Source: Sphaerisporangium album
GTDB taxonomy: Bacteria; Actinomycetota; Actinomycetes; Streptosporangiales; Streptosporangiaceae
DNA: 64,000 bases
Assembly: GCF_003323745.1 (NCBI RefSeq)
Contig: NZ_QOIL01000006.1
Location: 124,001-188,000 of the forward strand
Reading direction: 5' to 3'
The notes below the pieces were generated by a model. It was given only the letters and a program-made list of their open reading frames with translations. It searched no databases and was not told the DNA's origin. Each line of letters starts with the position of its first letter. The first letter of the stretch is position 1. A program made the translations under genes and the position numbers. This document shows, piece by piece, positions 37,831-39,738 of this stretch.

Positions 37831-39078
<1,248 letters not shown>

Positions 39079-39134
39079 TCATTTGTCGTCACGGGGGCGC
39101 CCAACGGGTGCGAACACGCGTCGGGAGGACGGGA

Positions 39135-39150
39135 TTCCTGCGGTCAGGAA
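39135..39150 (-). promoter_or_regulatory. Hairpin at the end of the Cys-containing leader ORF
   Basis: TTCCTG-ACCG-CAGGAA, 6-bp stem. Its 5' arm holds the last Ser codon and the stop of the leader ORF, so ribosome position would control its folding. Confidence 0.45.
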
Positions 39151-39260
39151 CAGTCGTAGACGACGGCACAGGGAGTGTGCCCGAAAAGGTGCGTCCGCAC
39201 GGGCGACGAAGGCCCGGGGCGCACCCCGGCGCTCCCGATCTCCGGGTCAATCGTCAGCAT
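39144..39260 (-). CDS. Leaderless short ORF, putative cysteine-responsive leader peptide
   Basis: 38 codons, starting MLTIDPEIGS and ending HTPCAVVYDCS. The ATG at 39260 lies 7 nt after TAGAGT (39273-39268), so translation would begin at the 5' end of the mRNA. Cys31 and Cys37 are both coded by TGT, the rarer Cys codon in this GC-rich genome, and lie just before the stop. It sits between mec and cysO with the same direction, 84 nt before cysO. Leaderless Cys-containing short ORFs act as cysteine-sensing attenuators in mycobacteria; I infer a like role. The gene itself is supported by promoter spacing and codon pattern only. Confidence 0.6.
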   Translation of the reverse strand: MLTIDPEIGSAGVRPGPSSPVRTHLFGHTPCAVVYDCS

Positions 39261-39267
39261 GTTCCCA

Positions 39268-39273
39268 ACTCTA
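39268..39273 (-). promoter_or_regulatory. -10 box of a leaderless promoter before the leader ORF
   Basis: TAGAGT on the minus strand, 7 nt from the ATG of the 38-codon ORF. No good -35 box is seen. Confidence 0.5.
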
Positions 39274-39327: not shown

Positions 39328-39738
39328 TCAGGCGGGGAAGATCTTCACGTCCTCCTCGGTGACGACGCCGTCCACGATCCTGTACGAGCGGAACTGCACG
39401 GCGTCGGCGTCGGCCGTGGACACCAGCACGTAGTGGGCGTTCGGCTCGGAGGCGTAGGAGACGTCGGTGCGCGAGGGGTACGCCTCGGTGGCGGTGTGGG
39501 AGTGGTAGACGACGACGGGCTCCTCGTCACGGTCGTCCATCTCGCGCCACACGCGGAACTGCTCCATCGAGTCGAATCGGTAGAAGGTGGGCGAACGCTC
39601 GGCGTTCTCCATGGGAATGAACCGCTCCGGGCGGTCGGAGCCGGCGGGCCCCGCGACCACCCCGCACGCCTCGTCCGGGTGATCGGCCCAGGCGTGGGCG
39701 ATGATCTTGTCGACCAGTTCCCGTGAGATCGTCAGCAT
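39328..39738 (-). CDS. mec: CysO-cysteine peptidase, M67/JAMM family
   Basis: 136 residues with the complete JAMM zinc site: Glu in the helix HPDEACGVV, and YHSHTATEAYPSRTD (HxH-x7-SxxD). In M. tuberculosis this protein releases cysteine from the CysO-Cys adduct; here it may also remove the two extra residues of CysO. TAACTT (39750-39745) is 6 nt before the ATG, so mec may have its own leaderless start overlapping the DUF2017 stop. The first 12 nt of mec and of the 38-codon ORF are identical. Confidence 0.94.
   Translation of the reverse strand: MLTISRELVDKIIAHAWADHPDEACGVVAGPAGSDRPERFIPMENAERSPTFYRFDSMEQFRVWREMDDRDEEPVVVYHSHTATEAYPSRTDVSYASEPNAHYVLVSTADADAVQFRSYRIVDGVVTEEDVKIFPA

Follow-up and report, generated by a model that had tools for sequence, protein, structure and literature searches.

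A short open reading frame (sORF) of 38 codons, MLTIDPEIGSAGVRPGPSSPVRTHLFGHTPCAVVYDCS, lies between mec and cysO in the window, the whole 64,000-nt stretch of Sphaerisporangium album DNA analysed here, and the evidence is strong that it is a cis element of the cysO operon, both conserved and translated. From its sequence, we read it with moderate confidence as a cysteine attenuator that would depend on a single UGU codon, with a conserved nascent peptide assisting and a SigR-type promoter providing a bypass. In simpler terms, the tiny gene placed before the cysteine operon in some soil actinobacteria is probably a cysteine gauge. The leaderless-type start, the peptide core, the invariant TGT codon, the complementarity between the sORF and the cysO leader (helix P1), a second hairpin (P2) and a SigR-type promoter motif are directly visible in the DNA. 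The preliminary description of this locus did not include the conserved core of the peptide, the sORF's complementarity to the ribosome-binding region of cysO, the SigR-type motif or the presence of a homologous Mec tail in two other families. Known leaderless cysteine attenuators are runs of Cys codons in mycobacteria, and the sORF belongs to a different peptide family, found in one of the large orders of actinobacteria.

On the minus strand, the genes are arranged in the order mec, a 268-nt gap holding the sORF, cysO and cysM. The mec gene (39328..39738) encodes the JAB/JAMM hydrolase of the CysO route (Pfam PF14464), cysO (38781..39059) a ThiS-family sulfur carrier (Pfam PF02597) and cysM (37831..38778) a cysteine synthase (Pfam PF00291, NCBIfam cysKM). 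The sORF (39144..39260, minus strand) starts with an ATG at 39260, 7 nt downstream from TAGAGT (39268..39273, minus strand), the -10 element of the proposed leaderless promoter, and ends in PCAVVYDCS followed by the stop codon, both Cys codons being TGT. Length, box, spacing, C-terminus, codons and location in the gap are all as first described. The sORF peptide matched nothing in Pfam or NCBIfam, the profiles NF042933, NF042936 and NF042934 included; a relative searched against these three profiles gave no match either, and Rfam returned near the locus a single match at chance level (E 5.9). The 12 nt reported to be common to the sORF and mec are present, but the N-terminus of the sORF is not conserved in relatives and the likeness therefore looks incidental. 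The Mec active-site stretch PVVVYHSHT (within 39328-39738) also resembles HTPxVVYD of the sORF, probably by chance.

Conservation was assessed in the GTDB-type family of the window (f1), placed in the Streptosporangiales by its named matches. Among 150 genomes from 68 genera, cysO was found in 149, and the upstream region was read in all of these; mec is located upstream of cysO in 148, the remaining one stopping at a contig edge. A homologous sORF was detected in 87 of the 149 mec-cysO gaps and was lacking in 62. These calls were made with a motif expression for which the FLF.H part alone or the VVYD[CS] part alone suffices, and loss of both counts as absence. With a homologue in the corresponding gap of 87 of 149 genomes of the family, the sORF is not a chance frame. 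A TANNNT box ending 6-7 nt before an in-frame ATG or GTG precedes it in 86 of the 87 relatives, against a background of 212/6545 over all ATG and GTG codons of the 149 loci. The preliminary description had proposed to look in relatives for the frame and its Cys codon; frame, leaderless-type start and terminal TGT are all kept there.

The N-terminus of the peptide is variable, with a shortest form of 19 residues (MVQSFLFSHSRAEVVYDCR, genome G016), while its C-terminal part forms a conserved core, VQx[FY]LF[AG]H..xxVVYDC. Among the 87 sORFs, the first part of this core shows V in 81, Q in 84, [FYH] in 82, L in 85, F in 87, A or G in 84 and H in 86. The His is followed by T, S or C (86), P or R (86), two free positions and then V/I, V/L, Y, D and C, each in all 87. 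One to three residues come after the Cys in 84 sORFs. Only the cysteine of YDC is invariant, and the idea of a two-Cys tail acting as the sensor found no support: the second Cys (39152-39150) is the one kept, the first being Cys in 2 of 87. The conserved Cys codon (39150..39152, minus strand), which we propose to be the sensing codon, is TGT in 87/87; the Asp codon is GAC in 87/87 and the Tyr codon TAC in 86/87. TGT is the rarer Cys codon here, as had been stated: in the local background, made of the mec and cysM parts of the same f1 loci, TGC was counted 186 times and TGT 17 times among 203 Cys codons. Over 74 distinct cores, pS was 0.494 at codons -16 to -6 compared with 0.086 over VVYDC, which points to peptide-level selection, with synonymous sites drifting upstream, and to nucleotide-level constraint at the 3' end. 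The pN/pS ratio was below 1, with pS saturated.

A scan of named genomes yielded 192 pattern matches, of which 161 were confirmed. Among the best 80 of these 161 loci, 79 are filed under genus names, such as Planomonospora, Planobispora, Streptosporangium, Sphaerisporangium, Actinomadura, Nonomuraea, Microbispora and Actinoallomurus, and one is a MAG labelled only Actinomycetes. Taxonomy look-up assigned Sphaerisporangium and Actinomadura to the Streptosporangiales, to which we take the remaining listed genera (Planomonospora, Nonomuraea and the others) to belong as well. Thirty of the best 80 had the same sequence near the stop codon as loci from the first set; the other 50 made up a replication set. 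All 50 new loci have TGT, with mec upstream and cysO downstream (50/50 each), 49/50 have the leaderless-type start, 46/50 the SigR-type motif and 42/50 the P1 complement, compared with 0.070 at control offsets. A protein database search gave 165 matches, and the best 120 were named hypothetical or uncharacterised where they were named, apart from one UniRef "Universal stress protein". One matching protein of this peptide family, P0085, is labelled Mycobacterium tuberculosis and is probably a mislabelled or contaminated record. An earlier phylum search of 198 genomes with the first alignment had returned only the window and one match (E 0.0016). For weak class matches in family f78, tblastn with the operon proteins on loci L218, L351 and L352 gave nothing, and an early tally of homologues was set aside because matches at E above about 0.1 include chance ones. 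Searches of the open-access literature, with few subscription papers, gave no description of the sORF peptide or of the Mec tail, which does not establish absence from print.

A second family of leaders was found at the same junction. NF042934 is a cis_reg_atten profile named "putative leader peptide" (RLHVDLxRxASAxC). One f1 genome without the usual sORF (G026, locus L097) carries instead an NF042934 leader, MSGVDTNTEPGSLLVARLHVDLARIASALCRPRRARG, scoring 32.6 bits for a cut-off of 27, a natural swap of leader between mec and cysO. In family f3, which is presumably Streptomycetaceae, NF042934 leaders exceed the cut-off at this junction in 2 of 5 loci (L412 and L446); that of L412 ends in TGT. 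The frame of L446 has no terminal Cys and runs past its place (ASAMG...). In family f71, 2 of 6 loci (L405 and L419) carry such a leader above the cut-off, both with TGT. In the window's genome and its relatives, NF042934-type leaders were detected in 21/21 genomes at E up to 1 and above the cut-off in 17/21; further examples with terminal TGT stand at L178 and L193 of the window's genome. The terminal Cys codon was TGT in 28 of 29 leaders scored (from 30 loci), the exception, L172, having been scored two residues early with TGT as its last profile Cys. The upstream Cys codons of the same peptides were TGC 33 times and TGT 5 times. The NF042934 leaders thus resemble the sORF in their place between mec and cysO and in a terminal Cys that is nearly always TGT, but their peptide sequence is unrelated, and the sORF peptide gives no match to the profile. 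Because TGT is fixed, a cysteine operon lies downstream and the sORF is swapped with NF042934 leaders at the same junction, the sORF likely senses cysteine through UGU. These observations suggest that, in two leader families of unrelated sequence, the sensing codon is distinguished by being a fixed UGU and not by how many Cys codons there are, and that such leaders take each other's place at a single operon junction. Contig 21 of the window's genome also holds a second cysO-like gene (L169, about 2001-2276, 60% identity), which follows the end of an apparent threonine synthase gene; no leader sORF was seen before it.

Canestrari et al. reportedly described polycysteine leaderless sORFs of mycobacteria in 2020. 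NCBIfam names mycobacterial polycysteine leaders Ms5788A and Ms4527A. In mycobacteria, attenuation that responds to cysteine has been reported for leaderless sORFs with contiguous Cys codons (PMC9031893 and PMC13236596, partial texts), a response proposed earlier (PMC4633059, partial text). The element described here shares with them a leaderless short ORF before a cysteine operon, a Cys near the stop codon and a proposed control by ribosome stalling. It differs by having one invariant Cys and no Cys run; its conserved peptide is another one and matches neither NF042933 nor NF042936, its leader contains a SigR-type motif, and it has homologues that are fused to Mec.

To detect complementarity between the sORF and the cysO leader, an exact complement of each sORF pentamer was sought in the 60 nt preceding cysO, with single-base shuffles as reference. 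At offset -12, a complement was present for 0.80 of the 87 leaders, compared with 0.23 of leaders lacking the sORF and 0.08 of the shuffled own leaders; at offset -11, the values were 0.61, 0.10 and 0.08. This sole peak coincides with the Val-Val codons, no value outside -15 to -11 exceeding 0.18. In the window, GTCGTC (39159..39164, minus strand), the 5' arm of the long-range helix P1, is matched by the 3' arm GACGAC (39085..39090, minus strand), located just 5' of AAGGAG (39071..39076, minus strand), the Shine-Dalgarno sequence of cysO. The 60 nt preceding cysO contained AAGGAG in 65 of 87 leaders with the sORF versus 1 of 62 without. Of three clade alignments, RNAalifold paired the P1 arms in two (12 and 6 sequences), and in the third (11 sequences) it gave GTCGTC another partner. 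For the window leader, P1 is present in the centroid and absent from the minimum-energy fold, and the stability of the whole leader does not exceed that of shuffles (z -0.45). Duplex energies between the sORF tail and the cysO leader were only slightly better than those of shuffles, with a mean z of -0.21 where a control segment had 0.00. Compensatory changes of the GTGGT/ACCAC type hinted at covariation in one genus, but were not counted as such, since leaders with GTCGT often contain ACCAC too.

Hairpin P2 (39100..39125, minus strand) is formed in the window by CCCGACG (39125-39119) and CGTTGGG (39106-39100) and encloses the SigR-type -10. Mean fold z was -1.90 in the 75 sORF-carrying leaders with GGAAT, GGAAC or GGAAA, versus 0.02 in 60 leaders without the sORF. 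Uninterrupted stems of at least 7 bp were found in 32% of the former (6% with the arms shuffled) and in 3% of the latter (4%). Some hairpin enclosing the SigR-type -10 occurs in 72 of the 75 leaders, with 68.6 expected in shuffles, and it is only in stability that the leaders exceed shuffles. P2 stems differ between clades, and RNAalifold on all 75 windows jointly gave no consensus because the stems sit at different offsets. The hairpin noted earlier over the stop codon, TTCCTG (39150-39145) with CAGGAA (39140-39135), is indeed present (39135..39150, minus strand), but this form is confined to 5 of the 87 leaders, all from the window's genus. Its 3' arm overlaps the -35 of the SigR-type motif.

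A classical transcription attenuator was considered and rejected, as no intrinsic terminator with a T run was found between the sORF and cysO. The window leader has no terminator-like site, and the longest T run in any of the 87 leaders is 4. Such leaders would suit control through Rho or through coupling: the ribosome, whether stalled or terminating, would hide RNA from Rho or uncover it, or would bring ribosomes on to cysO, and P1 would be secondary. Rho has been proposed for mycobacterial cys leaders (PMC1262725, partial text), and this explanation also fits the null outcome of a masking test on the opening of the cysO ribosome-binding site. When a ribosome mask was placed at UGU (ViennaRNA, 87 leaders), Shine-Dalgarno accessibility was 0.40 free, 0.43 stalled and 0.45 with a control mask (p = 0.30), and per leader it rose by more than 0.05 in 32 of 87 and fell in 25. 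With a P1 complementarity that is both specific and conserved, we nevertheless judge control by Rho or coupling highly improbable.

The SigR-type motif of the window, GGAAT-N18-GTT (39113..39138, minus strand), has its -35 at 39138-39134 and its -10 at 39115-39113. GGAAT-N(16-19)-GTT was detected between the sORF and cysO in 64 of 87 gaps, and in 60 of the 62 gaps lacking the sORF, whereas shuffles predicted 0.59 and 0.08 genomes, respectively. The motif fits the SigH consensus of M. tuberculosis, GGAAYR-N17-GTT; the same source describes Rv1334-Rv1336 (mec-cysO-cysM) as directly regulated by SigH (PMC4803200, partial text). The consensus given for C. glutamicum is GGAAT-N18-19-GTT (PMC10012870, partial text), and cysM of S. 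coelicolor is diamide-induced (PMC4340878, partial text). Differently from these cases of SigH/SigR control, the motif described here lies within a leader, 3' of an sORF having its own promoter box. We suggest that the predicted SigR-type promoter is a bypass of the sORF, and that a stress promoter within a leader can bypass that leader.

The single-UGU attenuator could operate as follows, the transcription starts, the stalling, the sensing and the direction of control being inferred from the sequence features above. RNA polymerase would start at or next to the ATG, and ribosomes would load on the leaderless mRNA. The nascent chain FLF[AG]HxPxxVVYD, lying in the exit tunnel, would slow the ribosome at UGU, such that one Cys codon may be enough. 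When Cys-tRNA is plentiful, the ribosome would pass UGU and terminate 1-3 codons further; once it has left, GUCGUC could pair with GACGAC beside the cysO Shine-Dalgarno sequence (P1, enclosing P2) and damp the translation of cysO-cysM. When Cys-tRNA is scarce, the ribosome would sit on UGU and cover GUCGUC, and the start of cysO would stay open. Under thiol-oxidative stress, the SigR-type promoter could give a transcript devoid of the sORF and of the 5' arms, hence the bypass. Several points speak against this attenuator: a single Cys codon is little for a sensor of codon starvation, masking at UGU gave a null result, duplex energies are weak, the stability of the window leader is unremarkable and no terminator-like site was seen in it. 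The cysteine attenuator of the preliminary description is partly borne out, in its conserved frame, start and TGT; the cysteine response itself we infer, and one folding test was negative.

A class search revealed two genomes of another family with a match at the end of mec, which led to family f88, identified by names and taxonomy as Micromonosporaceae. Of the 61 genomes of this family, 58 have cysO; 30 of these loci were read, and 27 have the peptide as an in-frame Mec tail such as VDPHAVQSYMFGQSPATVDYECSGR. In two others (L323 and L325), the module stands 3' of the mec stop codon in another frame, and L303 has no module. The Cys codon of the module is TGT in 29/29, against a background of 9/84, and the SigR-type motif was found in 0/29. 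Complementarity to the final 75 nt before cysO is enriched in other letters and at positions lying slightly 5' of the f1 register (GACGG, 0.55 versus 0.15; ACGGT, 0.41 versus 0.07), with further enrichment at -20 (0.41 versus 0.12) and a lesser peak at -32 (0.38 versus 0.14). Family f99, identified in the same way as Geodermatophilaceae, matches in 28 of 38 genomes. All 28 loci read there have a Mec tail like VVESYLFGHSPTTVVYD with a stop codon exactly at the place of the Cys codon (TGA in 27, TAG in 1), and all 28 gaps contain GGAAT-N(18-19)-GTT. P1 was not convincing at the Val-Val codons of the Geodermatophilaceae (0.25 versus 0.12 at -12); other complementarity peaks stand at -10 (0.43 versus 0.08) and -25 (0.29 versus 0.09). 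No Mec tail of this kind was seen in 47 loci from 22 other families.

These in-frame tails, together with the pN/pS ratio below 1 (pS being saturated), could mean that the tail is a functional part of Mec that was split off in the Streptosporangiales and acts in trans on Mec or CysO as a microprotein. We consider this quite improbable. AlphaFold predicts residues 139-162 of a Micromonospora-type Mec as disordered and undocked, with a pLDDT of about 30 (<50), for a monomer and a shallow 25-sequence alignment; the 47 loci from other families do without such a tail; and a microprotein leaves the fixed TGT, the suppressed synonymous change and the complementarity to the cysO leader unexplained.

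That the Geodermatophilaceae keep the peptide without any Cys also argues against the attenuator reading. In arrest peptides such as TnaC and SecM, conserved residues stand at tunnel distance from the last sense codons. The core of the sORF is likewise conserved at tunnel distance, and the Geodermatophilaceae motif ends at a stop codon. A TnaC-like arrest peptide, whose core FLF[AG]HxPxxVVYD would bind a small molecule (cysteine, O-acetylserine/O-phosphoserine or sulfide) in the exit tunnel and stall the ribosome, would make UGU, or UGA in Geodermatophilaceae, the A-site codon at arrest and not a charging sensor. In its favour, some 17 residues are conserved at the amino-acid level, the codons of their upstream half drifting synonymously, and the core is retained where the codon after Asp is a stop. 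We regard it as unlikely, since TGT is fixed in all three sets of loci (87/87, 50/50 and 29/29) and the unrelated NF042934-type leaders have the same TGT bias, both pointing to UGU decoding, and no ligand is known. Compared with TnaC and SecM, TGT is fixed here, P1 partly explains the conservation of the 3' end, and the arrest is putative. Within the single-UGU attenuator, we hypothesize instead that the conserved core is a nascent-chain brake, which would explain both that one Cys codon suffices and that the core is kept before a stop codon in Geodermatophilaceae.

More tentatively, the peptide and its codon may form a portable nascent-chain cysteine-gauge cassette, in which the tunnel peptide makes one UGU sufficient and which can function in two forms, a free leaderless leader and a Mec tail. 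This suggests that an attenuator module can form part of the preceding enzyme; if the cassette exists, the end of an enzyme gene, mec, would be the attenuator of the gene that follows it in the operon. In 37 of the 87 sORF-carrying f1 genomes (for example L008, L011 and L012), the mec stop codon forms the first three bases of the sORF -10 box (TAAACT, TAGACT, TAAGCT or TAAAAT), and in 23 of these 37 the sORF and mec are in phase. With such overlaps and frames often in phase, few changes would separate or join the free and fused forms. The mec stop codon is TAA in 27 of the 87 genomes with the sORF, compared with 0 of the 61 genomes without it in which the stop was read.
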